DNA from: Antedon mediterranea
Lineage: Eukaryota > Echinodermata > Crinoidea > Comatulida > Antedonidae
Direction of reading: 5' to 3'
Length of the DNA: 64,000 nucleotides
Assembly (NCBI RefSeq): GCF_964355755.1
Contig: NC_092674.1
Coordinates: forward strand, 1,803,001-1,867,000
Shown here: positions 5,521 through 39,747 of the stretch, one piece after another
Numbering within the stretch: position 1 is the stretch's first letter
Layout of the letters: each line of letters begins with the position of its first letter
Made by a program: the position numbers and the translations under genes
The notes under the pieces: generated by a model
Told to the model about the DNA's origin: nothing
Databases searched by the model: none
What the model saw: only the letters and a program-made list of their open reading frames with translations

Positions 5521-5545
5521 ATATCATTACGCGCTAGCCTATAAA
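5521..5545 (+). promoter_or_regulatory. Array promoter 1 (ATATCATTACGCG box plus TATAAA)
   Basis: ATATCATTACGCG lies at 5521-5533 and TATAAAG at 5540, about 95 bases before the ATG at 5637. The same pair of elements precedes the other genes of the array. Confidence 0.65.
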
Positions 5546-5636
5546 GTAAAACAGATTTATAGTAGATGTGACAGATCGCATGGTCGTAGAACCAATAACG
5601 TTGTTAGAAAAAGGTAAATAGGGTTCAGGAAAAATA

Positions 5637-6814
5637 ATGGCGGGAATAGACCAGCCCGGTCCCAATCAAAGGTAAGAAAATTAAATTAAATTGAAGATTT
5701 AAAATATCTTCATCGGTTGTGTACTGTACTGTAATTAATACTCAATTATTATAAAACTGATTCGATGTTTCTTTCACTAATTTCACATCAGTTGAATTCC
5801 GTAATTGTGTTTTAATAAATAAATAAATACCAAAATTCTCCAAATAAATGTATACATATTAAAATGTATATTGTTTTGTAGAATTTTAAACATATTTCAT
5901 TATTTCATATTTATCATCAGAAAAAAAATATTTGAATTTAAATACATTGTTTTATACATTTATTTTTAAATACATTGTCTAATTTGTTAATGTATACAAA
6001 GAAGTAAATTTATTAAATTGGTAACGTCATTTCAAATAAATTAAATCAAGAAACAAGATGTAGGCTTGTCTTAATCATTAATCTATAGCAGAGGTAAATA
6101 TCAGGCAAATTGCATAATAGTCATAATATAAAAATTGGTTGGTATCTTTTATTAATACAAATTAATCTTTCATTAATAAAAATATTAAAAATAATTTGAT
6201 AATGAATTTTGGCATAAGTTAAAGATTGCTATTAACATTCTTTGCAATGTTTCTCATATACTATTATTTGAGAACTGTAATGTTTGGATTTTTGAAATTA
6301 TATTATTTTTACCATTTTAAGAATTTATATTTATTCATTGTTAACAGCATAGATTTAAAATTACACATTGTTGGAGAAAATAGATACCTCACTGAAAGTG
6401 GTGTTGGACATTGGACAATCAGCCAGTTTCTAGAAAATATACATTTAGGCGCGTACAGAGCAGAATATATTAATGGGGCTATCATTAATGAATACAGTCA
6501 ACTAAGAAATCTTACATCTAAAACTCTATACCTAAGGTACGTTTACTCGTCATCAGTATTATAATCACCATCATCTGAAACATCATCTGCACCTGCATTT
6601 TTTAAACAAAATTGGCGTTTATTAGTAAACCCAAACCGTTGTTTTTTTTTTTATTAATTTGCTGGTCTATATCCTAAAAAACTTAATTCCAGATATATCT
6701 ACCAACACATTATAGTTTAGTATTTTAGTTTTAGTTTTTGATAAAGGTAACTTTGTAATAGCAATGACTGCTTTTAATGTGTCAATATATTTTTTCTATT
6801 TTAGGCGGCGCTAG
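5637..6814 (+). CDS. Array gene 1: leader plus divergent ubiquitin-like domain, three exons, ends in Arg-Arg-Arg
   Basis: Exons are 5637-5671, 6348-6536 and 6805-6814, giving 77 aa. Exon 1 encodes MAGIDQPGPNQ and stops in phase 2 at AG|GTAAG, as in all array genes. Exon 2 starts after TTAACAG and encodes a domain that I align weakly with ubiquitin: IDLKLHIVGENRYL for the first hairpin, FLENIHL for the helix, YINGAIINEYSQLRNL for the segment corresponding to IFAGKQLEDGRTL, and KTLYLR for the last strand. A third exon after TTTTAG adds only Arg-Arg and a stop, where ubiquitin has Gly-Gly, so it should not be conjugable. If the intron at 6537 were retained the end would be LRYVYSSSVL. The family assignment rests on array context as much as on similarity. 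Confidence 0.55.
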
Positions 6815-6914
6815 TCGTGTCGATGTCGTTGTTTTTGCTGACTTGATTCTCCAAGAAAGTACTTCAACAACAACAACAACAGATTTTCCATTTATTTACA
6901 AAAGCTTCTGTTTA

Positions 6915-6965
6915 AGTTTTTTTCACTGTTAATTAATGCTATTTAAACCTTGCTTCATGAAATCA
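6915..6965 (+). terminator. Shared 3'-end block (copy 1)
   Basis: TTTAAACCTTGCTTCATGAA matches the poly(A) region repeated after other array genes (9395, 11408, 16190, 18929), although here AATAAA has changed to TTTAAA. Confidence 0.4.
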
Positions 6966-7225
6966 TTATAGTAAAATATAAATGTATTATTTACATTGAT
7001 TACGTCTACTCAACAAATCAATTAATGAATTAAATTTAATAACATATATACAAATAAATTATTCTTGTGTGTTATTGTTTGTTACGATAGTAAAGTCTGT
7101 TTCCACGAGGTGAATCTATTCCTGTGATAAAAAAACTTGTATTTTTTATTTACGTGTTGTGATGATTTTTAAAAAGGCCCAGCAAACATCAGCAGATTCA
7201 GGAGAATAATGTAGGATTCGTGTGG

Positions 7226-7362
7226 ATAGATTCGCCATACAAGGCCATATACATGGCTGCAGTTGCGTGCTAAAATTTGAATTAGTGTTTACCGACCGAC
7301 CATCCGACCAACCGACCGACATAGTGAGATACATGTAGAGTCGCGTTGCACGCGAATAAAAC
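7226..7362 (+). repeat. Dispersed repeat with a (CCGA)n core
   Basis: GGCCATATACATGGCTGCAG, a short A/T spacer, CCGACCGACC-type repeats, then AGAGTCGCGTTGCACGCG. Members of the same family lie at 19119-19226 (+), 35515-35605 (-), 38397-38490 (-) and 60179-60263 (-). Confidence 0.65.
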
Positions 7363-8038
7363 CAGGAAATATGTGTTTATTGCGACAAAGCTCCTATTCA
7401 TTGAGAATGGCAAATGGGATGCACTGTTTACAAAATTGTCTTAAGGATTTGTTTAATTAAACGGTTACTGTAAATTACAAAATATTTTTTTCTGGAGCAT
7501 AGGCAATTGTGTTCTGCAATAGCAAAATGCAGCCTTCACTTGAAACGCCCCCACAATCTATACCAATGACTTATAAGCACCTCTTAAATGTTTTAATGTT
7601 TAAAATAAGTTTGTTAATCTAACAAATAATAATGTGAACATCATAGAAATAATATTTTTTTTTTATCGATTATGGTATTGTTATTAAATCCAAGAAGAAT
7701 GCAAAAGTAACCATTTACATAGAGTGAATTTAATAACATTACAGTTTAACCTTTCGGTGCTCTAACTACGATGGCTTCTAACTCTCCAGGCATTGTAATA
7801 ATTATATTTATAACTTTTCATTCATTATTTTAAATAATTTAAGTTCAATAGTATGATAGTCATTATTCGTACAGAAATTGTATTTGTACTGTCAACTTAC
7901 AGGAGTTAAATTATATAAAAAATGTGAGTGGTACCAAATACACCGATTAGATAGAAGGAACAAATGGGGTTTGGATGGGTGTCCGGTATCGTAGGTATCC
8001 GCTTACTAGAGGAGAGAATTCACTTCAGGTACCATTAA

Positions 8039-8060
8039 ATATCATTCCGCGTAACTATAA
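8039..8060 (+). promoter_or_regulatory. Array promoter 2
   Basis: ATATCATTCCGCG at 8039-8051 (one change from the consensus), then CTATAATATA at 8054. The ATG follows at 8149. Confidence 0.6.
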
Positions 8061-8148
8061 TATACCGATTTTCTAATTTAAAACAGAACTATTCATAGAT
8101 ATCAGTGCTGATAAATACGTTTAAAGTGAACTATCTTACTCTGGAAAT

Positions 8149-8607
8149 ATGGCTGACAAATTCCAACCAGCTGCAAATGAGAAAAAGTAAGAAAATAATT
8201 AGTAACGAAGGGTTAATTATAGTTGCTATTATTACAGTTAATATTATTTTAAAGTTCGGAATGGACTAATAAATATCACTTTTTCAGGATTAATTATTGT
8301 TATAAAAAGTAACAATAAAAAGTAGAAAAAAAAAATTCTGATTGAAATTTACTTTTGTTTAGCTACCTTTCGTTTCCTTTAAGTATGTTAATTGGTTTTC
8401 TGTGAAACAAAAAGTAAATTTTTTCTACGAAATGTATATTTTGAACATTCCAAAATTTGTTTATATATTTTTATAACTTTTGTAATTTAGATAAAGCGTT
8501 AATAATGTATTTTTATTTTTAACAGGATATGCCCTAACTGTCGCCAATGGTTCTCTCCAAAAGATTTTAAGATACATATTAAAACATGTTTACCGAAAAA
8601 AAAATAA
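8149..8607 (+). CDS. Array gene 2: micro C2HC zinc-finger protein (39 aa)
   Basis: Exons are 8149-8186 and 8526-8607, with a 339-bp intron (GTAAGA...AACAG) in phase 2. Exon 1 encodes the leader MADKFQPAANEK. Exon 2 encodes one zinc finger, CPNCRQWFSPKDFKIH then IKTC, with spacing C-x2-C-x11-H-x3-C, followed by a basic tail PKKK. That spacing, and a Phe at the fourth position after the second Cys, match the zf-C2HC_2 finger found in repeated form in the ZC2HC1 proteins. Here a single finger makes up almost the whole protein. Possible roles are nucleic-acid or protein binding. No signal peptide or membrane segment is visible. It is the closest paralogue of the gene at 10133. Confidence 0.7.
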
Positions 8608-10049: not shown

Positions 10050-10079
10050 ATATCATTACGCGTATATATAACTATAAAA
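10050..10079 (+). promoter_or_regulatory. Array promoter 3
   Basis: ATATCATTACGCG at 10050-10062 and TATAAAAA at 10073. The ATG is at 10133. Confidence 0.65.
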
Positions 10080-10132
10080 ATACAGAACTTCTATTCTAAA
10101 CTAAAACGCTTCATAGTCATAGTGGCGAAAAT

Positions 10133-10653
10133 ATGGCTGACAAATACCAACCATCAGCGAACGAAAAAGGGTAAGAAGGCAATATATAGTTTGGAATATT
10201 GTTCACATGTAATCTATAAGGTAAAATTTTACATTAAATAGAGCATAACTAAAAATTCGTTACTGTGAATCAAGAGCACGATGAATAATAAAGAGATGAG
10301 AGATTGCTTATAAATTTTGGCAACATAACATTATAAAGTTCCATCTAATTTTTAACCTAATTGGACTTCCAAGTAACTCTTTTTAAAATTCTCACCTGTG
10401 TTATTGAGCCTAAATCTTAGAATTCACAAATTATTGATAATATAATTACTTATCGTTTTATATCGCCCTAGCTTCTTGGTCGGTTTGTTACTAAACTTAG
10501 AAATACTTGTTTTCAAAATGTTTTTAGAAAATTATAAAAAGTTTTAATACGGGTTTTTTTTTCATTTTTAACAGCCAATGCCCACACTGTCACTGGTATT
10601 TCTATGCAAGAAACATAGCGGCACACGTACGAAACTGTCCATCAAGACCATAG
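10133..10653 (+). CDS. Array gene 3: micro C2HC zinc-finger protein (38 aa)
   Basis: Exons are 10133-10170 and 10575-10653, intron in phase 2 (GTAAGA...TTTAACAG). The leader is MADKYQPSANEKG. Exon 2 encodes CPHCHWYFYARNIAAH then VRNC and a short PSRP tail, again C-x2-C-x11-H-x3-C. Zinc ligands are intact while most other positions differ from gene 2, which suggests selection on the finger rather than neutral copying. The shared 3'-end block with AATAAA at 11408-11413 lies about 750 bases downstream. Confidence 0.7.
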
Positions 10654-11952: not shown

Positions 11953-11977
11953 ATATCATTACGCGAAAACTATAAAG
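11953..11977 (+). promoter_or_regulatory. Array promoter 4
   Basis: ATATCATTACGCG at 11953-11965 and TATAAAG at 11971. The whole stretch from about 11900 to the ATG is nearly the same as 17465-17627, upstream of gene 6. Confidence 0.65.
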
Positions 11978-12061: not shown

Positions 12062-12772
12062 ATGGCTGATCAACCCAGAGACGAACCAGCGGCAAATGAA
12101 GGGTAAGATGCTAATCATATCTAAAAGTAAATTATATAGATATAGGCCTAGTATACTTAACAGTAATATTTACTGTCAAGTGTTTGACTTATTTTTACGG
12201 GTTAAAAGGTTCTATATTCGTTACCTTTCAAATAATACCGTTACTGAAGATCAAGAGACGTAGATGAATATTAAAATAAGTAGTAAGGATGGTGCTTATA
12301 CATTTGACTAATTTCATCAAGAATTAGAATGTTTCAATTATATTATACTTCCATCTAAACTTTTTATAGAATATTTACTCGTAATATTATTAGTCCAGTT
12401 CATTTTAAATGAAATAGACAAAATTGATCAAATCAATGGAGGGCATATAACAAGATTGTTTGCGAAAGTCACACTTTACCACCTTAATAGAAGAAATACA
12501 AAAAAAAATAACTAAAATTCTTTTTGTATTTAACTGTTTCTAAATTACTTTAGAAAAAACTATTAGATTTGCGCTAGTTTGTTTGTAATACAATATCAAA
12601 CAAGATAGTCTCTGATATGTTAAGATGTATATAAACGTTACTACATGATTGTCTCTGATATGTTACGTTACTACATGATTGTCCTTTGCTTTTTAACATC
12701 AGATGCCCACGCTGCCACAGGTCGTATTGGTATTACACTTATTGGATTCACCGTTTGTTCAACTGCAACTAA
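12062..12772 (+). CDS. Array gene 4: micro C2HC zinc-finger protein, aromatic-rich (36 aa)
   Basis: Exons are 12062-12102 and 12703-12772, phase-2 intron ending AACATCAG. The leader is MADQPRDEPAANEG. Exon 2 encodes CPRCHRSYWYYTYWIH then RLFNCN and a stop. Spacing is C-x2-C-x11-H-x4-C, one residue longer than in genes 2 and 3, with an unusual run of Tyr and Trp between the ligands. The last 100 bases of the intron are almost shared with gene 6, and part of them is locally duplicated (CTACATGATTGTC occurs at 12640 and 12671). A longer open frame over exon 2 (12645-12932) is in another frame and not favoured, because only the phase-2 frame keeps the Cys/His ligands. Confidence 0.65.
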
Positions 12773-13538: not shown

Positions 13539-13598
13539 ATATCAATGCGCGAACTGCATTTACCCAATACGTTCAATTGTATCTATTCCATAAAATAA
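13539..13598 (+). promoter_or_regulatory. Array promoter 5 (variant box)
   Basis: ATATCAATGCGCG at 13539-13551, the variant also found before gene 7 (19634), followed by a weak TATA candidate CATAAAATAA near 13589. The ATG is at 13684. Confidence 0.45.
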
Positions 13599-13683: not shown

Positions 13684-14338
13684 ATGTCGGGTGGTAGTGG
13701 CCAACCAACATTCGAACCATCACCAACTGAAAAGGGGTAAGAATATCGTCTTTAATTAGTAAAGCAGATTATTGAAATTTATATTTAGCAGATAAATATT
13801 CAATGATAACAATTTTGAACTATTTCATATTAACAGTAATATGGAACTTAAATCGTTAAAATACAATTTTAATAAACATAATTAATTTTTTTTCGATCCA
13901 AGCCGTTTTGTTGTTTTTTAATACAAACATCAATAAAGGTTTTTGCTGGCCAACTTTTGTTAAGGCCAACTAAGACAGCATCGTACGACGAGGCCCGACG
14001 AAACGCCTCGACTCGTCGGTGCTGTCTGAACTGAATCCCGACGAGAGACCAGTCGTCTTCGGATAGCCTCGTCGTACAACGCAGTCTGAGTTGACCTTAA
14101 TAATGACGCTGTCTGAGTTGGCCTTAATAAAAGTTTAATTTTGACAATTTTGAAATGTATTTTTAGTTGTTTCGAATGTGTAAAACGTTAATTATCTTTT
14201 GACAGAGATGACAAAGATACGACCGATACGTCAGGTGGTGAAAACACCGGAAGCACCACGAGCAAACGCAGTGGATGTCCGACATTGTTCACCTATTGTT
14301 CCGAATGGCCGGCTACAGATATTGATGTTAAACTGTAG
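13684..14338 (+). CDS. Array gene 5: leader plus Ser/Thr/acidic tail (61 aa), no known domain
   Basis: Exons are 13684-13736 and 14206-14338, phase-2 intron (GTAAGA...TTGACAG). The leader is the longest of the array, MSGGSGQPTFEPSPTEKG, and contains the core FEPSP. Exon 2 encodes a polar stretch DDKDTTDTSGGENTGSTTS, then KRSGCPTLFTYCSEWPATD and a short end. The two cysteines (C-x6-C) do not form the C2HC finger of the neighbours. It may be a diverged finger exon or an independent module. AATAAA at about 14460 could end the transcript. The product looks disordered and no function can be proposed. Confidence 0.5.
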
Positions 14339-14479: not shown

Positions 14480-15180
14480 CCTACTTTCATATATTTTTAT
14501 CCGCTATGAAAATATATAAAGTATGACAGGTACCTTTGAGCTTTTTTCAACTATAAACTTCTCAATTGCAAGTAATTTGTGGATGTTTCTGATATATGTT
14601 TACTCTCAGAACATCTAAAGAAAACAAAGCAACAAATATGAATAAGTCCCTGTGACACAGGCCTACAATGAAGATTACTATGAACATAGAAATAACTAAC
14701 GCTCGGGACTAATGGACTTCTCTATTTCACACCAGACTGAATAGTACGTAAATTGTAGATGTTGCAATAATGTGATTTGAATACGTAAATATTGTTTATG
14801 AATTATTTTACTGAAGTAAGTGTTGTGGTTACTTAGCATCGTAACTCTCACTTAATTATCGCAGATTTGGAAATGGTAAATTTAAACAATTGTCAAAATA
14901 TTATTCCTGTAATTTTGCGGTTTTTTGGTTTACCTTGTCATCATATTTGATAGGTATGTACCGCTCATATTGATGTAACTAGTTATGTATCCATTATATC
15001 ATTGTTTGCTTTTTAATATACTGCTCTACTACAGATTGCCTAGGCATATGCATATACAATGTTTTTCTTTGGGTTTTTTTCTTAAAGCGTTTTGATTCTT
15101 AGTTTTTTAAGCAATTGTTATTAATTACTAATCCTTGTTTCGTCGTTAAAATAGTATACTTAGTTTATAACTACATTAAT
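14480..15180. other. Array spacer, duplicated downstream flank
   Basis: 14490-14700 resembles 13180-13350: both hold CGCTATGAAAAT, then CAACTATAAACTTC, then ACAGGCCTACA and TTATGAAC or CTATGAAC. This marks an old duplication of the flank of gene 4/5. No gene seen. Confidence 0.5.
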
Positions 15181-15780
15181 ATACCTTGATGCACCTTGAT
15201 ATACCTTGATGCACCTTGATAAAACACGGTGTACCTTGATATACCTTGATGCACCTTGATATATCTTGATGCACCTTGATAAAACATGGTGTACCTTTAT
15301 ATACCTTGATGCACTTTGATATACCTTGATGCACCTTGATAAAACATGGTGTACCTTGATATACCTTGATGGACCTTGATAAAACATGGTGTACCTTGAT
15401 ATACCTTGATGCACCTTGATATACCTTGATGCACCTTGATAAAACATGGTGTACCTTGATATACCTCGATGCACCTTGATAAAACATGGTGTACCTTTAT
15501 ATACCTTGATGCACCTTGATATACCTTGATGCACCTTGATAAAACATGGTGTACCTTGATATACCTTGATGCACCTTGATATACCTTGATGCACTTTGAT
15601 AAAACATGGTGTACCTTGACATACCTTGATGCACCTTGATATACTTTGATGTACCTTGATATACCTTGATGCACCTTGATAAAACATGGTGTACCTTGAT
15701 ATACCTTGATGTACCTTGATATACCTTGATGCACCTTGATAAAACATGGTGTACCTTGATATACCTTGATAAACCATGGT
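15181..15780. repeat. 600-bp decamer minisatellite
   Basis: Sixty consecutive 10-mers in perfect register: mostly ATACCTTGAT, GCACCTTGAT, AAAACATGGT and GTACCTTGAT in changing order, forming 20- and 40-bp higher units. There are substitutions but no indel. All three minus-strand frames stay open (YQGASRYIKVH-like), which follows from the repeat and is not evidence of coding. Confidence 0.95.
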
Positions 15781-17340
15781 CTTGCGACTTTGAAGCTGCG
15801 CCTATGTGTTTCTCCATGCGTAGTTTTAGTTTTATAGTTGTTAAATTCACAATTTTAACGGTATGATTTTTTTAATACGCTAACTCTTAGAGTTCATATT
15901 GGGTTTGAGTTTATAGCATGATTTTCAAGAGTACGTTATTTTTACATTCTCCTTCTTTAAATACCATTTTTACATTTAAATAAATCTATTTATCGTATGT
16001 TAATTTATTGATGTTGACATTATAGTATAAACTTGGTTTATGTTTTTATTCCTACTCCATTTCTATTCTATTGAAGAATATATAAATGAATAAGAACCTA
16101 CAGATATTCTTTTACTATGCCATTTCTTTACAAATTCATTGTAGTAACTTCTGGTAAAGTTTTGACACTGTTAGTTCTTAGAATATTGCTGATAAATTAA
16201 ACCTTGCTTCATGAAATCGTGTCTCGTGTCTTTTTAAGCATTCATTATCTCTATTTATAATAAAATAGTGTTTACAGTGATCACGTCTAATCAACATATC
16301 AATATTAACTATCAACAGAGAATTTAAAGAGATTGTTAAGGAAGACATAAATCAACATCTCAATCGCAAAAAAATATATTTTTCTTAAACTCGACAGAGC
16401 AACATTGCACCATTGCAGCAGAATAACTTCACGTATATTCTTTAAACTTTAATAACTTGACTTTAGCTGCCACACCTAACCAATTTGCTGCTATACTCAA
16501 ATGAGTCTCTACACAGTATAGGAAGAGGATGATGATGATAATGATGATGATGATGATGATGATTTTTTGACTTTATATTCAATAATATTAATAACTAAAT
16601 TGACGTGTAACACAGATGATCTTGTAAAGAGTGATTACTGCTGCAAATGAAGAACAAACTAATAAGATATTCGGTAATACAGCATATCATTTGTATCACA
16701 TGTGGTGCCTGTATCATATAAGGTCAGTGTATGAGTATGATACTAGGAGATACATGTGAAACACATGTGATTTTCCTATTCCTATGATACTGAGGCAATC
16801 TAGATACAGTACCGAGAATCGGGTGGTCTATTTTAGACGAAGTGATTCGAAAATATGGTGACATGGGACTGCTGACTCTTGTAGTGACAGTAATCATTAC
16901 TTTAGAAGTCCCTGACCAATTTCATCTTTGTACATTGTATATATGTTTTGTTGGTCGAATAAATAAATTAAATGAAATGACAGTAAATAATACTTAAGGG
17001 GAAAGTTAATTCAAATAAGAACAATTTGGTATTTTGAAACATTTTTGTGATACATTTATACTAAAATAGAGAAAATTCATTATAAATAAAAGTTTAATCC
17101 TTTTCTCTGTTTTACTTAATATAAGCTTACATTACATGGACCTGAACTATGTAACTATTGAGTTACAAAAAACAGTTGAAATTAAAAGTTAGTTAAGTTA
17201 GTTTATATTACTTTGCATTTAATTTTGTAAAACAAAAACAACAACAATTATACAAGTAAAACAAATAAATAGTAGTTGTAACCACTATCTTAATTGGATG
17301 CAATTTTCATTCTAATTTAGTGCTTAGAACAATCTCATTG
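15781..17340. other. Array spacer with duplicated segments, no gene seen
   Basis: 16160-16215 holds another copy of the 3'-end block (AATTAAACCTTGCTTCATGA). 16526-16563 is a short (GAT)n run. 16660-16880 is duplicated at 19270-19510, sharing TTCGGTAATACAGCAT, TAGGAGATACATGTGAAAC and GATTCGAAAA. No open frame with array features was found. Confidence 0.5.
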
Positions 17341-17350
17341 GCTGTTACTC

Positions 17351-17385
17351 GACGCGCTATGAATTAATATACCATACTATAAAAA
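17351..17385 (+). promoter_or_regulatory. Second, upstream promoter copy of the ubiquitin-like type
   Basis: GACGCGCTATGAATTAATAT then CATACTATAAAAAGAT and, further on, TTCACTTTCTTTTTAAACGG. This matches the promoter and 5' UTR of the ubiquitin-like genes at 35870 and 38782 rather than the zinc-finger type. It sits only about 150 bp before the zinc-finger-type promoter at 17507. Confidence 0.5.
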
Positions 17386-17506
17386 GATATATAAATTGTT
17401 TTCATTCACTTTCTTTTTAAACGGAAATCCACCTATAGTTAAAAATGAATATTTAAAATAAAAAAGAAGTATTGTTAAGAGACTTATTTCAATATTATAA
17501 AATACG

Positions 17507-17534
17507 ATATCATTACGCAAAAATACTATAAAAA
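17507..17534 (+). promoter_or_regulatory. Array promoter 6
   Basis: ATATCATTACGC at 17507-17518 and TATAAAAA at 17527. The ATG is at 17627. Nearly identical to promoter 4. Confidence 0.6.
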
Positions 17535-17626: not shown

Positions 17627-18213
17627 ATGGGTGACGAGCCATCGCCAAATGAAAGGCAAGTAATACGTTATAGGCCTAGTATATTTAGCAGTATTATTTA
17701 CTGTCGGTAATAGTTTACGATATATCTACAGATTAAAAAGGTTATATTAAGTTGCCTTTTAAATATATACCGTTATGTGGGAAGGGTTCATCAACAATTT
17801 GAATGAAAGTTAAATTTTACTCTAATGTCAAAATAAAATTTTTATTAAATATTAACTCATAATTGTAATAGTTCAGTTCATTTAATTAAAAATATAAACA
17901 AAATGTATTAAATCACAGTGGAGGATATGTTATACGATTGTTTGTATACACTTATATTTAAAAAAAACTAAAATAAAACTAATTTTTGTATTTAGCCTTA
18001 ATTTATTTACATTAAGTTTAATTTTGCTTTAGTTTGTTAGCTAGTTTGTTAGAGAATACCAATCAAGATAGTCACTGATATATTACGTTAAGATGTATAT
18101 AAACGTTACTACATGATTGTTCTTTGCTTTTTAACATCAGATGTGAATACTGCCACAAGAAGTATTGGATTTATAGGATTCACCGTCTTTTCTTCTGCAG
18201 TGGGAAACCATGA
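17627..18213 (+). CDS. Array gene 6: micro C2HC zinc-finger protein (33 aa), GC-AG intron
   Basis: Exons are 17627-17655 and 18141-18213. The donor is GCAAGT instead of GTAAGT, a known minor donor class whose other positions match the consensus well. The leader is the shortest, MGDEPSPNER. Exon 2 encodes CEYCHKKYWIYRIH then RLFFCSGKP and a stop, with spacing C-x2-C-x9-H-x4-C, two residues shorter between Cys and His than gene 4. It is clearly the paralogue of gene 4: the ends IHRLFNC and IHRLFFC match, as do 100 bases of intron. Whether this shortened finger still binds zinc is open. Confidence 0.6.
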
Positions 18214-19633: not shown

Positions 19634-19700
19634 ATATCAATGCGCAAATGCATTCAAGCAAATGCACCCAATTGTTTACTGGAAAAGTGTCTATTTATAT
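19634..19700 (+). promoter_or_regulatory. Array promoter 7 (variant box)
   Basis: ATATCAATGCGCA at 19634-19646, the variant shared with promoter 5, and a weak TTTATATG at 19693. The ATG is at 19819. Confidence 0.4.
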
Positions 19701-19818: not shown

Positions 19819-20215
19819 ATGAGTAATCAATGTATAGATCAACCAAGTCCAAAGTAAGTTACAACTTATCTTTTACTAAATAATATTAAAATATTGTTAT
19901 TATGTGTACGTCACACAAAGATATATTACAGAACAATTATCAGATTGAATTTTACTTGTGTGATTTAATAAGATACTATCTGAGAGAAAGCCTAAATTAA
20001 TAGTGTGTACGTATATCAATAAATTATGCGCATTATAATCATAATAATGTCATGATGAAATGTAATGTGTTTATGATATTGACTAATAGTATATATCTCT
20101 ATGCAGTATTTTGAGAAAATACCCACGTTGTAAAGTTCTTGCTTATGTCGTCGTCATTCTAGCTGCAATATATTGGTGTTGTGGTTTTGGATATTTCATT
20201 TCTGTCATTGTTTAG
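19819..20215 (+). CDS. Array gene 7: leader plus single transmembrane helix (47 aa)
   Basis: Exons are 19819-19853 and 20107-20215, phase-2 intron (GTAAGT...CTATGCAG). The leader is MSNQCIDQPSPN. Exon 2 encodes a basic stretch ILRKYPRCK followed by a hydrophobic segment VLAYVVVILAAIYW and CCGFGYFISVIV up to the stop, long enough for one membrane helix. With positive residues before the helix and none after, an N-in orientation is expected, leaving the leader in the cytosol. The branch region TTGACTAATA before the acceptor is shared with the orphan exon at 31869. An upstream in-frame extension (open from 19600) exists, but the ATG at 19819 matches the position and phase of the other leaders. 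A later 3' region (20540-20960) is shared with the gene at 28943. Confidence 0.6.
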
Positions 20216-20875: not shown

Positions 20876-20960
20876 TAGATCAATAAAATAAAGTTAGATA
20901 ATATGTACATTTCTACAATTTATTTCTATGCAATGTAGCGTTAATACTTATAATAATGAT
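20876..20960 (+). terminator. Poly(A) region of array gene 7
   Basis: TCAATAAAATAAAGTTAG, followed by ACATTTCTACAATTTATTT, which recurs at 30925 after the gene at 28943. A possible last non-coding exon begins after TTTCAG at about 20544 (GAAATCGTAATTATTTAAC), matching 30679. Confidence 0.45.
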
Positions 20961-24099: not shown

Positions 24100-24990
24100 G
24101 GGGCAATTCAAATAAAAAGTTCTGGATTAAAATGATCTTACAAAATATACAAAAATATCACAATACACAGTACAATATAACAAGAGTCAAAGTTCAAGAA
24201 ATTAAGAGTCGGATGGCAACTGGCAAAAAAGAATTTCTTTTCCGGTTTGTTCTACATGCCGGGCATCGAAAGCGACGCCCATGAGGCATGAGCTCGAAAT
24301 CACTGAACAAGGCATGGTTAACATTTTTTAGAATAGCTCTATTTTTTTCTAGAGTTTGCATGTCACAGAAGGAAGACAAGCTACGAAGTTGACAACCTAT
24401 TAATTTAGAACTTAAATTAACAATTCTTTGTAGTGAGTTTCTCTCTTTGACCCTATTAAGACTAAAAAACCAGCATATAAAGGAAAACAGTTAAAACGTT
24501 CTCAATAAAGGAATTATAAAAAAACCTGAGAATTACTTTATCGACATTAAAATGGTTCAGCTTCCTTAACAGATAAAGTCTATGGTGTCCTTTCTTTACT
24601 ATTGCCTCTGTATTTAATTCCCAGCTGAGATTGTCCTCAAAATATAGTACCTAGGTATTTAGGAATGGACAATATCACTGGTTCGTCATTTATGAGGGAT
24701 ACCAGAGGGCTGCGTCATTTCTCCTTCCTAAAATCTACAATCATCTCCTTGGTTTTGGTCACATTGAGTTCCAAGTAGGAGTTTCCATAAAATTAGATAA
24801 AACCTTCTAATGCGGGACCATGACCGTCCTGTGAATTTTTAAGGAGAGACAGCAAGACAGTGTCGTCAGCAAATTTGACAAGATGACTATTGTCCTGTTT
24901 GCTGCGACAGTCATCCGTGTATATAATATACAGGAGATGAGAGAGGACGCAACCCTGGGGCGATCCAATACTTGTCATTACGTACATTCA
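24100..24990 (-). pseudogene. LINE fragment nested in the 4.4-kb element
   Basis: On the minus strand 24987-24793 reads GSPQGCVLSHLLYIIYTDD and LVKFADDTVLLSLL, the catalytic part of a non-LTR reverse transcriptase (FADD in place of YADD). Further down come LELNVTKTKEMIVDFRK, SIPKYLG, LYLLRKLNHFNVDKV and finally RKRNSFLPVAIRLL near 24200. The copy is 5'-truncated and has stops. The pattern resembles Rex1-type elements. That is a judgement by eye. Confidence 0.75.
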
Positions 24991-26958: not shown

Positions 26959-27005
26959 GTATCACTACGCGTACTCTGTGTACGTCAATACCATACTATA
27001 AAAAG
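26959..27005 (+). promoter_or_regulatory. Array promoter 8 (ubiquitin-like type)
   Basis: CGTATCACTACGCG at 26959-26972 and CATACTATAAAAAGA with TATAAAAAG at 26997. The box-to-TATA distance (about 25 bp) is the same as in promoters 9, 12 and 13. Confidence 0.65.
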
Positions 27006-27095: not shown

Positions 27096-27648
27096 ATGGC
27101 TTTCAGGGATCAACCTGGTGCAAACCGAAGAAATGGGTAAGTTTACATAGGCCTAGTAAAAACATAAATACTTGTTAGCTAGACAAACTAATCATAATTA
27201 CACAGATTTTTTTTTTTTTTTAAAGACAATAATTAAGCAAAAGAAAAATGTCACCGGTTCCTTTGCTTTCTAAATTATTATGGTTCTGGAAAGATTACTT
27301 ATAACTTTTAGCTTCTATGATTAGTGTCTCTAACAAAATACTAGATTTGAACGTCACCCAATTCCAAAATGCCTAAAATCATACTCGTAAATTTCTATTG
27401 TTGAACTTAGTTTTCAGATATTTGTGAACAATCTTCAAGGTCAAGCTATACCATTTGACGTATATCCTGATACAGATGTAATGGGACTAAAAGATATGAT
27501 ATTCCGGAGATTTGGGGTTGCCGTAGGAAATCAACGACTATTGTATGGTGGTAGTCAGTTAAACGACGGGGACACCATGGAATATCTCGGCATTCGAATG
27601 GGAATGCAAGCAACAATTCACTTAGTTCTACGAGTACACGGAGGATAG
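27096..27648 (+). CDS. Array gene 8: leader plus ubiquitin-like domain ending VHGG (92 aa)
   Basis: Exons are 27096-27136 and 27411-27648, phase-2 intron ending GAACTTAG; the nearer CAG at 27416 would give an immediate stop. The leader is MAFRDQPGANRRNG. The domain runs FQIFVNNLQGQAIPFDVY, then GLKDMIFRRFG for the helix, QRLLYGGSQLNDGDTMEYLG, and TIHLVLRVHGG before the stop. By alignment it follows ubiquitin along its whole length with a two-residue insertion near position 63. The Gly-Gly end is exposed without processing, so it could be activated by an E1. Of the seven ubiquitin lysines only K27 remains, so it is unlikely to form lysine-linked chains. R74 is replaced by His. Confidence 0.8.
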
Positions 27649-28827: not shown

Positions 28828-28870
28828 TGTATTACTACGCGTCTATGTATCAATATTCCAAGGGTATAAC
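28828..28870 (+). promoter_or_regulatory. Array promoter 9
   Basis: TGTATTACTACGCG at 28828-28841 and a weaker TATAAC at 28865. The ATG is at 28943. Confidence 0.55.
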
Positions 28871-28942: not shown

Positions 28943-30406
28943 ATGGCTAATCAGTTTGAACCAGGTGCAAACCAAATAAATCGGTAAGTACACGCAACCC
29001 CTTTACATTTTAGGCTACACTGGTTTAAAGTGATCAAAATAAGATACATAACTTGTAGGTCTACCATCACCATCAATATCCTTTCTTTCAAAAAATGTTC
29101 AAATAAAGTATATTCAGCAGAGACATCGTTCATCAGAGTCGGAACAATTTATTATTTATTATTTATTATTTTTCTATTTATGATTTAGGATTTATTATGA
29201 TTTGTTATTTATGATCTATTATGATTCATGATTTATTATTATCATTAATGATTAATGATTAATGATTCATGATTAATGATTCATGATTTATTATTATCAT
29301 TAATGATTAATGATTAATGATTCATGATTTATTATTATCATTAATGATTAATGATTCATGATTCATGATTTATTATTATCATTAATGATTAATGATTCAT
29401 GATTTATTATTATCATTAATGATTAATTATTATCATTAATGATTAATTATTATCATTAATGATTAATTATTATCATTAATGATTAATTATTATCCATGAT
29501 TCATGATTTATTATTATCATTAATGATTAATTATTATCCATGATTCATGATTTATTATTATCATTAATGATTTATTATTATCCATGATTCATGATTTATT
29601 ATTATCGATTAATGATTTATTATTATCCATGATTCATGATTTATTATTATCCATGATTCATGATTTATTATTATCCATGATTCATGATTTATTATTCATG
29701 ATTTATTATTCATGATTTATTATTCATGATTTTGCTGATGTATTACGTATAACGTATTACGTATTACGTATTACGTATTACGTATTACGTATTACGTATT
29801 ACGTATTACGTATTACGTATTACGTATTACGTATTACGTATTACGTATTACGTATTACGTATTACGTATTACGTATTACGTATTACGTATTACGTATTAC
29901 GTATTACGTATTACGTATTACGTATTACGTATTACGTATTACGTATTACGTATTACGTATTACGTATTACGTATTACGTATTACGTATTACGTATTACGT
30001 ATTACGTATTACGTATTACGTATTACGTATTACGTATTGCGTATTACGTATTACGTATTGCGTATTGCGTATTGCGTATTGCGTATTGCGTATTGCGTAT
30101 TGCGTATTGCGTATTGCGTATTGCGTATTACGTATTATTTATTATTTATTCGTTTTCACTAATTGTAGCTTATCTAAAGTTAGATTTCAGATACATGTTA
30201 CATTTAATGGAATGCAGAGACACTTCAACGTATTTCCTGAAACATTAGTAGAAGAACTTAAAAGAATGGCATTCAATAGTTTCGGAGTTGATGATGGAAG
30301 TTTAACCTTTAATGGTGTAGAACTAGTGAATGGTAACACCATGGCAAGGTGCAATATTATAGTAGGGTCCAACATTACCTTGCACGATTCATCATGCTGT
30401 AGGTAG
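28943..30406 (+). CDS. Array gene 9: leader plus ubiquitin-like domain without Gly-Gly (87 aa)
   Basis: Exons are 28943-28983 and 30184-30406, phase-2 intron of 1,200 bp filled by simple repeats. The leader is MANQFEPGANQINR. The domain starts FQIHVTFNGMQRHFNVFPET, continues with LVEELKRMAFNSFGV, LTFNGVELVNGNTM and NITLHD, and then departs from ubiquitin: the end is SSCCR instead of LRLRGG. An alternative splice at TGT AG|GTAGGT (30402) to an exon at 30679 would give CCRIS. Either way the conjugation end is gone, so it would act, if at all, as a non-conjugated binding domain. The upstream open frame made of the repeat (from 30065) is not part of the protein. Confidence 0.65.
29148..29735. repeat. 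AT-rich interrupted simple repeat in the intron of gene 9
   Basis: Mixtures of ATTATTATCATTAATGATTA, CATGATTCATGATTT and TTATTATCC units, about 590 bp, with local higher-order periodicity. Confidence 0.9.
29740..30136 (+). repeat. (GTATTAC)n heptamer array with a (GTATTGC)n end
   Basis: About 56 copies of a 7-bp unit. The last dozen or so before 30128 are GTATTGC, the others GTATTAC. It sits 50 bp upstream of exon 2 of gene 9. Confidence 0.95.
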
Positions 30407-30850: not shown

Positions 30851-31340
30851 TTACAGCATTTAACAATTTTTTTTAAAATGCTGTAGGTCAGTAATAAAAG
30901 TTACCTAATTAAATATACATATAAAAATACATTTCTACAATTTATTTTTAAATAAATGCTATTTCTATTGATAACACATAAAATCGTTGGTGATAAGGAT
31001 ACCCGATGATGACGACAATGACGATGATAATAATAATAGATGGTGATTATGGTAATAATGATGATGACTATATTAAATATCCATAATCATGGTCGGCTAT
31101 AGTGAAAAAGTGATAATAATGATATGATGATGCAAACGGCTAAATAATGGCTTCGGTGATAATAATAATAATAATAATAATAGTAAAAAGACGGTTTGCT
31201 TTCTAAACTAAGACACGTACAAATATATTCACCATTTCTCTAATTAAAAAGAGACAATGAAGATGTATATATTTAAACCAAGTAAGTTAAAAGTGGTTAG
31301 GACACAAACATTTATTCCATAATTTCTTTTTTAACTTTTA

Positions 31341-31446
31341 ACTCACTGTGAGCCGAGCGGTTAAGACAGTGGAACCGTAATTACATAGCCATAACATCGG
31401 CAGGGGTTCGAGGCTCACTCACTCCATGGTTCTGGTGGTAGAACGA

Positions 31447-31480
<34 letters not shown>

Positions 31481-31650
31481 AGTGTACACATCTAGCTCGT
31501 GTGCACTTTAAAGAACCTAGTACATCTTTCGAGACGAGTAAGGGGTTACTCAGGTGTATTAGTACATCACAGCCACTGGTCACCAACTGGGCCCTCTGGG
31601 AGACCAGTCTTTGACTGAAGAGGTTACCCAGTATAAATATATATTTCAAT
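31341..31650 (+). mobile_element. tRNA-derived SINE (family A)
   Basis: The 5' part, 31351-31420, looks like a tRNA gene: box A GAGCCGAGCGGTTAAGACAG and box B GGGGTTCGAGGCTCAC. A tRNA-unrelated body with GTAGGTCCAGTGTACAC follows. A minus-strand piece of the same body lies at 62630-62740. It interrupts the intron in front of the exon at 31869. Confidence 0.75.
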
Positions 31651-31868: not shown

Positions 31869-31980
31869 TAATAAGGAAGATGAATCGTGTTGGTTTTGGC
31901 TCTTTATTGTAATAATCTTTATTTCTATCATCATGATTATTGCCGATTTCATATATTTCATTGTTGCCGTTATCTTTTAG
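31869..31980 (+). pseudogene. Transmembrane-module exon without an intact first exon (gene 10)
   Basis: After TTTGTGCAG an exon in phase 2 encodes NKEDESCWFWLF and a hydrophobic run IVIIFISIIMIIADFIYF to the stop: 36 aa, one membrane helix. The preceding intron end (ATTGACTAATATTATTATG) is homologous to that of gene 7. The corresponding leader at about 31255-31290 (ATGTATATATTTAAACCAA then GTAAGTTAA) has been shortened and now ends in phase 1, which would put this exon out of frame. So it is either dead or is used from another leader, for instance that of gene 9, which is in the right phase. Confidence 0.45.
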
Positions 31981-32222: not shown

Positions 32223-32261
32223 ATATTAATACGCGTATGTATGTACGGAGACTATAAAAAG
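32223..32261 (+). promoter_or_regulatory. Array promoter 11
   Basis: ATATTAATACGCG at 32223-32235 and TATAAAAAG at 32253. ATTCATTTTCTTGGCAAGCGG downstream matches the 5' UTR of genes 12 and 13 (CACTTTCTTGGGAAACGG). Confidence 0.6.
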
Positions 32262-32346: not shown

Positions 32347-32863
32347 ATGGCTGAAGTGTTTCAACCAAGTCCAAACCCAAAGCCACCACCAGTAGAGTGA
32401 GTACACGTAACCTTAGACCTGTAATTTGCCAAAGTATACATACAATTGTATTATTATAAATAATGATATCAAATGCAATGTGTTTTTAGTTTAAAAAGTT
32501 AGCAAATCACTACTAATAGATGTTTGGGCATTATTCTATTTGTCATAGACATTGTCCTTTTCAATAAATTCCCTAGTTATAGAATGTCATTCGTCACTAA
32601 TTTCAGTTATCTAAATTAGATATAAGGAAATAAAGGTGAAACTGAAGAAAAGCATTGATGCCAACAGGAAAACTTACATACTTAAAAACGTTGATTCAAC
32701 CATGAAAGTAAAAACATTTATTGAACGGATACAGGATAAATGGGAAGACGACGATGAGGATGAGGGCAACGGCGAGGGCAACGGCAAAGGCAAAGTTAAG
32801 AAGTTATATTACAATAAAAAACTGCAAAAAGAGGATGATATACTAAGCTCTGTATTAAAGTAA
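32347..32863 (+). CDS. Array gene 11: leader plus charged, ubiquitin-like-fold candidate without Gly-Gly (97 aa)
   Basis: Exons are 32347-32396 and 32620-32863, phase-2 intron (GTGAGT...AAATTAG); the alternative CAG at 32606 would lead to a stop. The leader is MAEVFQPSPNPKPPPVE, proline-rich. Exon 2 encodes EYKEIKVKLKKSIDANRKTY, then DSTMKVKTFIERIQDKW for a helix, an acidic/glycine insert DDDEDEGNGEGNGKGK, and KKLYYNKKLQKEDDILSSVL. Strand-helix-strand order and KLYYNKKLQKED (ubiquitin: RLIFAGKQLED) suggest a very diverged ubiquitin-like domain that stops before the last strand. Highly basic outside the insert. Resemblance is weak and the position in the array is the main support. Confidence 0.55.
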
Positions 32864-35050: not shown

Positions 35051-35869
35051 TTATTATTTCAATATATAGTTACTATTTAAAAATCATAGAGTTGATGATA
35101 AGGTGATGATATATCAAGAAATATGATGATGATAATGACAAGTTGACAGGGATGAGGCGATGGTCATGATATAAGTGACAAATTAAAGATGACAATAATG
35201 GTTATGACAATGGTGAAAAAATAATATAACTTATCGATGACGTCAACGTTGATTACAATGCCTTCAGATATTGATTACATGATTTCTCAGATTGCACTTT
35301 TTACATATACTTTTAATTCGCCAAACGCATCCAAACGTATGGTAATTTTCTATCACCCTGGTTAACAAGAATGAGAACATATTTTGACACTGGTAGCCTT
35401 TTAGTAATCCTGTATCTGAATTTCTCTGCAATGATCGAGTTATATATTCCTAGCTAGCTATCGACAATTTACAAGAATGCTTGTAACAATCCCGGATATA
35501 GGCAATATTCTCTACAGCTCACTATGTCGGTCGGTCGGTAAACAACTCAAATTTAAGCACGCGACTGCAGCCATGTATATGGCCTTGTTAAATCGCGGTT
35601 TTATTTTGTTCATAAGATATACGCCAGTTAGACCCGAACGAATTGTAATCAACTGTTTCGCCTTATGATACAGCAACGCATTATAATTATGATTTTCTAA
35701 CATTCGTATTCCTACCAAATCTACCAGCCAAATAAAAGCACACCTTAAACCTAACAAGTGAACATGTCGAGTGTTTACTGCAATGGTAGGGGTAGAATAT
35801 GTAGTACATTCATCTATTGAATTATATTTCGCAATATTATCTCATTCTCATTCGATTCTCTGTTTGCTG

Positions 35870-35915
35870 TGTATTACTGCGCGTTCTATGAGTCAATATA
35901 CCATACTATAAAAAG
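35870..35915 (+). promoter_or_regulatory. Array promoter 12
   Basis: TGTATTACTGCGCG at 35870-35883, then CTATGAGTCAATATACCA and TATAAAAAG at 35907. The ATG is at 36032. It is almost the same as promoter 13. Confidence 0.7.
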
Positions 35916-36031: not shown

Positions 36032-36508
36032 ATGGCGGATGAGTTTGAACCAAGCCCAAATCCAAAAAACAGGTAAGTTTACACATGCCGATAGTACCGT
36101 ACAGTTTATAATAGCAATAATAAGTACTAAACGCGTCAACTTATTTGTTTATCAATTTCTGAACTGTATTAGGTCAATTGTTACTTCAAATAAATTTGTA
36201 TTCTAAAATATTTTTCACTACTTTATCTGTATAAAGCCGAATAGGTAATTTGAATTACAAATGTTTATTTGTTTAGCTTTCAGATATTTGTGAAAGAACT
36301 TCAAGGAATAAGTACACCCTTTGATGTATATTCGGAGACAACTGTATTAGAACTTAAATATAAGATAAACAGTGATCTTAATATTCCCATAAAACAGCAA
36401 CGATTAACATATGAGAGTAAACCGTTGATCAACGAGAATACCATGGAATTTTACGGCATCAGAAAGCACTCAACCGTACACTTGCTTCTACGACTGCGCG
36501 GAGGATAA
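36032..36508 (+). CDS. Array gene 12: leader plus ubiquitin-like protein with intact LRLRGG end (90 aa)
   Basis: Exons are 36032-36072 and 36277-36508, phase-2 intron (GTAAGT...TTGTTTAG). A 14-residue leader, MADEFEPSPNPKNS, is followed by a domain of exactly 76 residues, the length of ubiquitin, aligned without gaps: FQIFVKELQGISTPFDVY, LELKYKINSDLNIP, QQRLTYESKPL and STVHLLLRLRGG, then stop. By ubiquitin numbering K6, K27, K29, K48 and K63 are kept, K11 and K33 are not. R42, H68, R72, R74 and G75-G76 are kept. In the hydrophobic patch L8 stays, I44 is Thr and V70 is Leu. The Gly-Gly is the true C-terminus, so no processing protease is needed. By family knowledge it should be conjugable, with the leader as an N-terminal tail. 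The partner enzymes are unknown. Confidence 0.85.
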
Positions 36509-37629: not shown

Positions 37630-37685
37630 CTATTTCAATAAATGTATATTAAAGTATAAAATACACGCTGCTCTATTCTCATTTT
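37630..37685 (+). terminator. Poly(A) signal of array gene 12
   Basis: TATTTCAATAAATGTATATT, with AATAAA at 37637-37642, about 1.1 kb after the stop, followed by a GATGATG block from 37700. Confidence 0.5.
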
Positions 37686-37918
37686 ATGTTAAATTCAGCA
37701 ATGACAGAATAAATGGTGGTGGCAATGATGATGTTGTGATGATAGTTACAAAATATCAAAGATGATGATAACAAGTTGATATGATATGGCGATGATGATT
37801 ATGACAATTACTGTAATATAGTGACAAAATAAAGATGACTAATGATCACGACGAGTTGATATATTGTCGATACAAAATACAGAAGATTATACGCCTTCTT
37901 CAAGTCTAAGTTCAATCT

Positions 37919-38070
37919 TAAGCTCTGTCTACACTATCAAACTAGCTTGACAAGAAAATGTGATGTGCCCAAATATGGTAGTGATATGTGCAAATATGGT
38001 AGTGATATGATATCATCATGTCCTCCATATATGGGCACATCACTTTTTTTGTGTGTAGACAAGGCTTTAG
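37919..38070. mobile_element. MITE, CTGTCTACACTATCAAAC family, nearly complete
   Basis: Left end AGCTCTGTCTACACTATC. Internal GTGATGTGCCCAAATATGG and GTGATATG repeats. Right half CATATATGGGCACATCACTT and the right terminal repeat GTGTAGACAAGGCTTTA. Confidence 0.8.
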
Positions 38071-38781
38071 TTTACCATCAAACTTCGTCAAAAAATGCAT
38101 TCACATGTATATTCATTCTGGTGTCACCCTAGTTGATCAACAGCGTATGCATTGTGGGAAAGGAAATCGGAAACACCTTTTCAAAATGTATAACAAATTG
38201 GATGATGCTGTACAATACATTATTGACGTTTGCCTCTATTTTCACAACGAAATAAAAGAAATACATGTTAAATTCCCTTTTGTTTATTTTATTGTTTAAA
38301 AAAGAATGGAATGATCGAGCTATATATTCCTAGCTAGGTATCGAGAATTTACAGGCATGCTTGTAATGTTAAAAAATCCCGGATATAGGCAATAATCCGT
38401 TTTTAGTCGCGTGCAAACTATGTCAGTCGGTCAACTCAAATTTGAGCACGCGACTGCAGCCATGTATATGGCCTTGTTAAATCGCGGTTTTATTTTGTTC
38501 ATAAGATATACGCCAGTTAGACCCGAACGAATTGTAATCAACTGTTTCGCCTTATGATATAGCAACGCATCACAATTATAATTGTCTAACATGCCCGTTC
38601 GTAATTCTACCAAATTTGCCAGCATCACTGCCAAATAAAAGCATGCCTTAAACCTAACAAGTGCACATTTCAAATAATCACTGCAATGGTAGAATATGTA
38701 GTACATTCATCTATTGAATAAATCTCTATACAATGACATTACTATTTCGCAATATTATCTCTTTAACGATTCGCTGTTTAC

Positions 38782-38827
38782 CGTATTACTGCGCGTTCTA
38801 TGAGTCAATATACTATACTATAAAAAG
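38782..38827 (+). promoter_or_regulatory. Array promoter 13
   Basis: CGTATTACTGCGCG at 38782-38795 and TATAAAAAG at 38819. The 5' UTR repeats that of gene 12 (CACTTTCTTGGGAAACGGAG). Confidence 0.7.
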
Positions 38828-38945
38828 ATATTGGGAAAAAATATTTTCGTTATTAAAACACTCACTTTTTATTCTACAACACTCACTTTCTTGGGAAACG
38901 GAGATCTAAGTTATTATTTAAAAAGAGGTATATTTGAAGAACATT

Positions 38946-39747
38946 ATGGCGTTTGATTTTGAACCAAGCCCTAATCCAAAACACAGGTGAGTTACCATTT
39001 AAACGAAATAGTACAGCGTGTGGTTAGATATTAGAATGAATAAATAATTATTGAACACGTTATTTGTATTTGTGTCTGAATTCCATACACCTTTTTTTAT
39101 TTGTACTTGAATTAGGTATTATTTGTTGTTGTACGGAAAATAAATTTATCCTTACATACATAGGGTAACTATCGGGAATCAAATTTACACAAATAAATAT
39201 TTCAATATTTATCTCTTATCTCTTATCAGCATACGCTGTTTAGGGTCACTCTCTATAAATAAGGTGAAATAAATAAATAAAATAACTTTATTTTTTTTAT
39301 AATTATGCAATTTATTTATATAAAGAATTTGGGGGAAATTAAAGAAGTTTTACTTCCTTTTCCTACCTTTCTCTCCTTCTGTAATTTATAAAAAAAAATA
39401 GATTATTTTATTTTTATTAATTGTAGATTGAAACAAATAAAGAGATAAATTATTACTTAATTAAATCAAAGAATTTGAAAACAAGTGTTTTTTATTCATG
39501 TCTTTTTTTTTTTAGATTTCAGATTTTTGTGAATGATCTGAAAGGAAAGAGTACAACATTTGACGTATATGCTGAGACAAAAGTACTAGACCTTAAACGG
39601 ATGATAAATGAACGACTTCAGGTTCCAATCAAATCTCAACGCTTAACGTATCAGGATAAACAGTTAGAAGACCATAACACAATGGAATGGCATGGTATTC
39701 GAAAGGATGCAACAATCACCTTGCTTCTACGACTGCGAGGAGGATAA
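38946..39747 (+). CDS. Array gene 13: leader plus ubiquitin-like protein with intact LRLRGG end (90 aa)
   Basis: Exons are 38946-38986 and 39516-39747, phase-2 intron (GTGAGT...TTTTTTAG). The leader is MAFDFEPSPNPKHR. The domain is again 76 residues: FQIFVNDLKGKSTTFDVY, LDLKRMINERLQVP, QRLTYQDKQLEDHNTMEW and ATITLLLRLRGG, then stop. Kept are K11, K27, K48 and K63 (ubiquitin numbering); K6, K29 and K33 are changed, so the lysine set differs from gene 12. KQLED is as in ubiquitin itself. I44 is Thr and H68 is Thr. The gene and 700 bases of its upstream flank are a tandem duplicate of the gene 12 unit, 2,914 bp further on. The longer open frame from 39475 reads through intron sequence. Confidence 0.85.

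Follow-up and report, generated by a model that had tools for sequence, protein, structure and literature searches.

The 64,000-nucleotide stretch of the crinoid Antedon mediterranea analysed here (contig NC_092674.1, positions 1,803,001 to 1,867,000; hereafter the window) carries, between 5.5 and 39.7 kilobases (kb), a tandem array of twelve micro-genes, g1 to g12, all on the plus strand and with products of 33-97 amino acids (aa). Candidates were collected by reading positions 1-46000 and by a motif scan, and their number, orientation and product size agree with a sequence-only reading of the same DNA, which had proposed about a dozen same-strand genes of this size. All twelve follow one plan, in which an ATG, a leader exon, a phase-2 donor, an AG acceptor and a stop shortly after succeed one another. 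The first intron is in phase 2 in 12/12 genes, as had also been proposed, with 11 GT donors and a single GC donor (g6); g1 by reading has three exons and a product of 77 aa. The locus is confirmed as a tandem array combining a shared promoter type, a leader and a phase-2 intron with differing second exons (Table 1).

The leader exon comprises 29-53 coding nucleotides (nt), corresponding to 10-18 residues including the junction residue, and its core is [EQ]-P-[SGA]-[PA]-N, with T found once. A leader common to all twelve genes was thus rightly recognized in the earlier reading, the proposed core F-x-P-S-x-N being too strict (F is present in 6/12 leaders and S in 7/12). Only 28 stretches of 26-62 nt running from an ATG to a phase-2 donor were found on both strands of the 64 kb, in a scan that ignored leader sequence and took GTAAG, GTGAG and GCAAG as donors; 12 of them are g1-g12, and the 16 non-members are distributed as 4 on the plus and 12 on the minus strand. 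In held-out scoring of the leader core all twelve members reached 12.0-19.6 bits, whereas no non-member exceeded 3.3 bits. A regular expression derived from the genes gave 12 matches, all on the plus strand and all members, with none elsewhere and none in 100 dinucleotide shuffles. By reading, the leaders are polar and without signal-peptide character. A PAM2-like (PABP-binding) interpretation of F-x-P was dropped on account of the six leaders that lack F. It seems unlikely that the leader has been kept for a reason of RNA or splicing, such as start-codon context or the donor, with no role of the peptide: the leader is short and its core codons are, by reading, alike at the DNA level too, yet the conserved core is situated 5' of the donor, leader length is variable, and the same peptide core is found in a second crinoid, Anneissia japonica.

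Upstream of the genes, the element TATYAHTRCGCR was matched 11 times, always on the plus strand and each time upstream of an array member, with 0.17 matches expected for this pattern, which was derived from the genes; the g2 element is one base off the consensus. With held-out weight matrices, the promoter site scored above every non-member 12-mer on both strands in 11/12 genes, the g7 site being outranked by one non-member 12-mer at 31736 on the minus strand. In this scoring only g11 and g12 were omitted jointly, and the results for g1, g3 and g4 are the least independent, because their identical sites were trained on one another. In a TATA scan, ten genes had a TATA(A) match 3' of the element and g5 had CATAAA there; for g7 no match downstream of it was obtained. 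Genes g1-g4 and g6 have a distance of about 8-14 bases from CGC to the TATA box, and g8-g12 one of about 21-29 bases. What had been described as a common promoter is one promoter type upstream of all genes, present as 12 similar copies and not as a single shared promoter. Interferon-response-like sequences were seen by eye in the 5' untranslated regions (UTRs) and were not used as evidence.

The second exons of g8, g11 and g12 encode ubiquitin-like domains, with PF00240 matches above the Pfam cut-off (E 3.3e-16, 2.5e-17 and 5.6e-17, respectively) and 39-45% identity to ubiquitin over 76 positions (39-46% with the Anneissia homologue included). Like ubiquitin and single-domain modifiers, these three proteins and the Anneissia homologue retain R42, R72 and the terminal GG (G75, G76); K27 is kept in g8, g11 and g12, and K48 and K63 are present in g11, g12 and Anneissia, not in g8. 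Unlike ubiquitin, g8, g11 and g12 carry Phe for Met1, directly after the exon junction, with a 14-residue leader in front, and have no tail after GG; I44 is changed to Thr or Leu in these three and in Anneissia, and V70 is altered in three of the four. R42 and R72 are the E1-facing arginines needed for activation, and since the three products end at GG no trimming is needed; to judge from the residues kept, the members with a terminal GG probably act as conjugated modifiers. The g9 second exon is a diverged ubiquitin-like one (32% identity to ubiquitin over 71 positions), in which R42, R72 and the terminal GG are all absent and whose PF00240 match lies below the Pfam cut-off.

In a protein search, the spliced models of g8, g11 and g12 proved identical, letter for letter, to uncharacterized A. 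mediterranea proteins at NCBI, so that three of the twelve splice models have been independently annotated; among the exon junctions proposed earlier, those of these three genes are the ones borne out exactly. The g9 product, in the same query as g8 and g11, gave no fourth Antedon match among the best 120 of 145 listed, and the other matches among these 120, most of them unnamed, carried ubiquitin-family Pfam labels. Six proteins in all were inspected or aligned, and unnamed ones among the listed matches may carry the leader too. A 92-aa protein of Anneissia japonica, named ubiquitin-like protein 4A in the database, has the leader MSFGFEPSPNPKNR joined to FQIFVKDLQG and ends in CRGG. Anneissia belongs to the Comatulidae and Antedon to the Antedonidae; the leader plus ubiquitin-like exon is therefore common to two crinoid families.

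Four genes carry a zinc finger in the second exon. The pattern CxxC-x(8-11)-H-x(3-4)-C has 4 matches in the six frames of the 64 kb, falling exactly on exon 2 of g2, g3, g4 and g6, versus a mean of 0.4 and a maximum of 3 in 100 shuffles. The spacing C-x2-C-x11-H-x3-C is one that we take to be zf-C2HC_2/UBZ4-like; g2 and g3 fit it, and the spacers of g4 and g6 differ. In Pfam, g2 matched several zinc-finger families, all below cut-off (zf-C2HC_2 at 16.3 bits versus 27), g4 matched a zinc ribbon below cut-off and had no match to zf-C2HC_2, and g3 and g6 had no match.

The remaining second exons are single examples of their kind: an acidic Ser/Thr-rich tail in g5, a hydrophobic, transmembrane-like segment in g7, and unclassified sequences in g1 and g10. 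For g1 a SAM_1 match fell below the Pfam cut-off (E 0.11, 13.3 bits versus 23), a single-sequence structure model had a predicted local distance difference test score (pLDDT) of 59.8, and a ubiquitin-like assignment was rejected, as there was no match past the leader and the first residues. For g10 an assignment as diverged ubiquitin-like was likewise rejected: only the leader aligned, there was no Pfam ubiquitin match, and the single-sequence model was helical, with low confidence. The earlier division into unrelated finger, transmembrane, acidic and ubiquitin-like exons is thereby supported as a structural reading, with g10 not detectably ubiquitin-like and g1 an additional exon class. An orphan exon between g9 and g10 resembles exon 2 of g7, and the score of their alignment was reached by 0/500 shuffles. 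Between g9 and this orphan, positions 31333-31640 read like a transfer RNA (tRNA)-derived short interspersed element; tRNA and Rfam scans of the whole window gave no match.

Leaders random with respect to the second exons, the pattern that the sequence-only reading had named as speaking against it, were not seen: promoter and leader subtype largely track second-exon type, and the exceptions point to exchange or to new exons. Exchange was assessed by a blind self-comparison of the DNA up to 46 kb, in which seven repeat tracts had been masked out and reciprocal matches were listed once. Homology runs across the entire gene in g4/g6 (E 5e-77), and is strong in g11/g12, in g8 with g11 and with g12 (promoter and exon 2) and in the 3' regions of g2, g3 and g6. 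A reversed-sequence control with the same queries returned 13 matches with E no higher than 1e-4, down to 5.7e-10; measured against it, the g8-g12 match in the promoter (7e-8) does not count as significant by itself, and the g8-g11 match (1e-11) and the exon-2 matches do. The weaker matches, g5/g7, g10/g11, g1/g5 and g7/g9 as well as those of the orphan exon and of the relic promoter upstream of g6 (E 3e-5 to 3e-8), are at noise level in the blind comparison, and were therefore replaced by position-specific tests, consisting of local alignment of collinear places with 500 shuffles each. The observed score was reached by 0/500 shuffles for the 260 bases upstream of g5/g7 and for the 5' block of g10/g11 including the leader, two pairs whose second exons are unrelated, as well as for each of the 3' blocks of g1/g5, g5/g6 and g7/g9 and for the positive control, the g2/g3 3' region. 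The exon 2 sequences of g1 and g5 are unrelated, their score being reached by 103/500 shuffles.

Besides the noise level of the blind matches, several results weigh against exchange. Most of the tested places had been picked from the blind comparison and hence are not independent of it; the g5/g7 upstream region cut to 180 bases was matched by 22/500 shuffles, g10/g11 without the leader by 3/500, the g1/g6 3' region by 11/500 and the g1/g3 5' region by 19/500; and in an end-to-end alignment the g5 and g7 promoters are 53% identical. At the 3' ends, the motif TAAACCYTGYTTY was matched 5 times, once each after g1, g2, g3, g5 and g6, with 0.01 expected for a pattern derived from these sites. A motif built from g2, g3 and g6 recovered, with one mismatch allowed, g1, g5 and one unrelated minus-strand site, the total expected being 1.01, so that the motif count alone is no proof for g1 and g5. 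Directly upstream of g6 a promoter of the g8-g12 type is preserved in worn form together with its 5' region; the score of its alignment with g12 was reached by 0/500 shuffles, and the g6/g4 homology starts at 17445, within this region; as these alignments read, the finger gene g6 occupies the former site of a promoter of the other type. By the same kind of evidence, genes with different middles share ends, at the 5' side in g5-g7 and g10-g11 and at the 3' side in g7-g9 and g5-g6, and the position-specific tests largely restore the argument for exchange after the noise control had weakened the blind matches. Either shuffling or birth in situ may have supplied the second exons, both routes being compatible with the data.

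Regarding age, synonymous divergence (dS) of exon 2 is 0.49-1.17 in 7/8 pairs and saturated in one, and therefore the array is old; the suggestion of a lineage-specific, rapidly evolving cluster has to be qualified accordingly, a ubiquitin-like member being present in Anneissia as well. Purifying selection is seen in exon 2 of g11/g12, with a ratio of nonsynonymous to synonymous divergence (dN/dS) of 0.34 and changes at about 25/51 synonymous versus 42/180 nonsynonymous sites (Fisher p = 0.0007, on rounded counts); exon 2 is conserved above the intron in g11/g12 and g8/g11. A further set of results speaks against the overall reading given below: 9/12 gene models are without outside confirmation, one search for homologues of g5 and g7 gave no candidate, exon-2 dN/dS is 0.59-0.82 in six other pairs, indicating weak constraint, and exon 2 is no better kept than the intron in g4/g6 and g2/g3, so that constraint on the finger exons beyond C, C, H and C is weak.

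Two alternatives draw on these results. According to one, which we regard as distinctly unlikely, g8, g11 and g12 are the only functional genes and the others are decaying relics with frames open by chance, as might be suggested by NCBI confirmation being limited to these three, by the absence of GG in g9, by the GC donor of g6 and by the poor conservation of the finger exons relative to introns. Against this, none of the twelve genes lacks its promoter element, leader, phase-2 donor, acceptor or stop (in g1 by reading), the finger pattern is confined in the window to exons of g2, g3, g4 and g6, and the N of the g7 core is made only by splicing. According to the other, possible if rather doubtful, the array arose as ordinary tandem duplicates of a single ancestral gene that joined the leader to a ubiquitin-like exon; where this exon 2 was lost, a new reading frame would have been born de novo from intron or flanking DNA, with no module acquired. 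The finger, transmembrane and acidic exons are indeed short (about 20-44 codons) and either below Pfam cut-offs or matchless, the missing homologues of g5 and g7 fit such an origin, and the decay of g9, the orphan copy of the transmembrane exon and the worn promoter upstream of g6 point to ongoing loss; yet C, C, H and C are kept in 4/4 finger exons and there are two diverged copies of the transmembrane exon, each with an open frame, and both kinds of exon are therefore inherited modules, of whatever origin.

Table 1. Features of the g1-g12 array, with positions counted from the first letter of the window
Gene	Feature	Position	Strand	Sequence or remark
g1	promoter element	5522..5533	+	TATCATTACGCG; TATAAA about 10 bases past CGC
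g1	leader exon	5637..5671	+	MAGIDQPGPNQ; phase-2 donor GTAAGA
g1	exon 2	6348..6536	+	unclassified, SAM-like at best
g1	exon 3	6805-6814	+	tiny; would end ...LRRR-stop (by reading)
g1	3'-end motif, after gene	6944..6956	+	TAAACCYTGYTTY
g2	promoter element	8040..8051	+	TATCATTCCGCG
g2	leader exon	8149..8186	+	MADKFQPAANEK
g2	exon 2	8526..8607	+	finger C-x2-C-x11-H-x3-C
g2	3'-end motif, after gene	9397		TAAACCYTGYTTY
g3	promoter element	10051..10062	+	site identical to g1, g4
g3	leader exon	10133..10170	+	MADKYQPSANEK
g3	exon 2	10575..10653	+	finger C-x2-C-x11-H-x3-C
g3	3'-end motif, after gene	11410		TAAACCYTGYTTY
g4	promoter element	11954..11965	+	site identical to g1, g3
g4	leader exon	12062..12102	+	MADQPRDEPAANE
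g4	exon 2	12703..12772	+	finger C-x2-C-x11-H-x4-C
g5	promoter element	13540..13551	+	TATCAATGCGCG
g5	leader exon	13684..13736	+	MSGGSGQPTFEPSPTEK
g5	exon 2	14206..14338	+	acidic Ser/Thr-rich tail; no Pfam match
g5	3'-end motif, between g5 and g6	16198		TAAACCYTGYTTY; 1.86 kb past g5, assigned to it by position only
g6	worn g8-g12-type promoter and 5' region	17345..17487	+	directly upstream of g6; matches g12 38786-38947
g6	promoter element	17508..17519	+	TATCATTACGCA
g6	leader exon	17627..17655	+	MGDEPSPNE; GC donor GCAAGT
g6	exon 2	18141..18213	+	finger C-x2-C-x9-H-x4-C
g6	3'-end motif, after gene	18931		TAAACCYTGYTTY
g7	promoter element	19635..19646	+	TATCAATGCGCA
g7	leader exon	19819..19853	+	MSNQCIDQPSP(N); codon of core N split AA/T
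g7	exon 2	20107..20215	+	single hydrophobic, transmembrane-like segment (by reading)
g8	promoter element	26960..26971	+	TATCACTACGCG
g8	leader exon	27096..27136	+	MAFRDQPGANRRN
g8	exon 2	27411..27648	+	ubiquitin-like, ends LVLRVHGG; spliced protein = NCBI P0003
g9	promoter element	28830..28841	+	TATTACTACGCG
g9	leader exon	28943..28983	+	MANQFEPGANQIN
g9	exon 2	30184..30406	+	diverged ubiquitin-like; additional exon from ~30679 possible
	orphan transmembrane exon	31869..31980	+	resembles g7 exon 2; frame open; upstream leader match absent
g10	promoter element	32224..32235	+	TATTAATACGCG
g10	leader exon	32347..32396	+	MAEVFQPSPNPKPPPV
g10	exon 2	32620..32863	+	charged domain of ~80 residues, unclassified
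g11	promoter element	35872..35883	+	TATTACTGCGCG
g11	leader exon	36032..36072	+	MADEFEPSPNPKN
g11	exon 2	36277..36508	+	ubiquitin-like, ends LLLRLRGG; spliced protein = NCBI P0004
g12	promoter element	38784..38795	+	TATTACTGCGCG
g12	leader exon	38946..38986	+	MAFDFEPSPNPKH
g12	exon 2	39516..39747	+	ubiquitin-like, ends LLLRLRGG; spliced protein = NCBI P0001

Several other sequences lie in and around the array. An element of about 60 bases, 84-90% alike between copies, is found upstream of g11 (35529-35588), upstream of g12 (38422-38477) and, inverted, downstream of g1 (7239-7301), and is likely a dispersed repeat. Long tandem repeat tracts occupy 15170-15785, 20935-21480, 29130-30150 and 44700-45260 (among the best 20 of 30 families), one of them sitting in the g9 intron. 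An interrupted coding-like stretch at 22600-24100, whose longest frame has no Pfam match, is probably a decayed transposable element, and a 496-codon frame on the minus strand at 52887-54377 reads, by reading only, like a reverse transcriptase of the long interspersed nuclear element (LINE) type. Beside the array, candidate first exons stand head to head at 41950-43110 on the minus strand and at 43424 on the plus strand; the 78-aa minus-strand protein, spliced by eye, gave no Pfam match.

Several known systems can be compared with this array. The precursors of dermaseptins (amphibian skin peptides) and conotoxins have leaders that are secretory signals, and their products are secreted; the Antedon genes share with them a conserved 5' exon or leader followed by very different downstream products, and differ in a leader without signal-peptide character. 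The nearest architecture, as far as the partial text of its description goes, is that of the SpTransformer (Sp185/333) genes of sea urchins, which are small, tightly clustered two-exon genes with a fairly conserved exon 1 and a diverse exon 2, in which a hydrophobic leader precedes second exons that are mosaics of shared elements, and which respond to immune challenge (PMC5491942). With these the crinoid array has in common the echinoderm host, small clustered genes, a conserved first exon and a diverse second exon. Unlike the hydrophobic SpTransformer leader, however, the Antedon leaders are polar, and in place of a mosaic the Antedon second exons are of different types, those of g1 and g5 being unrelated among the pairs tested. 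The ubiquitin-like members also invite comparison with FAT10, a modifier with two ubiquitin-like domains. The same number has been reported for ISG15 (PMC8834048, in its partial text), an interferon-induced ubiquitin-like modifier (PMC11354881, likewise). Like both, the Antedon proteins are ubiquitin-like modifiers by their sequence, and unlike both they have one such domain per gene. In the open literature, as covered by titles and abstract openings, with subscription journals and preprints mostly outside this scope, an array of this kind was not described, which is weak evidence of absence.

Taken together, we consider it reasonably probable that the locus is an old array whose small, probably co-regulated genes each stand on a copy of one 5' cassette, followed by differing second exons, in a lineage, the crinoids, reported to be the sister group of the remaining living echinoderms (PMC11336682, in its partial text). 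The cassette would consist of the TATYAHTRCGCR element, in most copies a TATA-type box, then a short 5' UTR and the leader exon, which ends in the phase-2 donor and supplies an N-terminal tag, [EQ]-P-[SGA]-[PA]-N, that is polar and does not look secretory. The different second exons would have been placed by duplication and recombination among the genes of the array, or by the birth of exons 3' of a copied cassette. The nine genes other than g8, g11 and g12 would be expressed as well, one factor would co-induce the genes of the array, a ubiquitin-type E1 would conjugate the GG-ended members, in which R42, R72, G75 and G76 are kept, and the products would act inside the cell. An immune or stress role is a guess. 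A bolder proposal, tentative and on the improbable side, is that of a plug-in array, in which the tandem promoter and peptide-tag cassette is a platform repeatedly given new, co-expressed intracellular effectors (tagged ubiquitin-like modifiers, micro zinc fingers, membrane peptides and acidic peptides), with the tag serving as a common address or regulator and the leader/ubiquitin-like junction predating the split of the two families.

For secreted products, gene families are known in which a leader exon is combined with replaceable second exons. Read as an old crinoid array on a duplicated cassette, the Antedon genes would represent a version of this arrangement for products without an evident secretory signal, ubiquitin-like modifiers included, and the array would be a naturally replicated experiment in the origin of new short proteins and of new ubiquitin-like modifiers.

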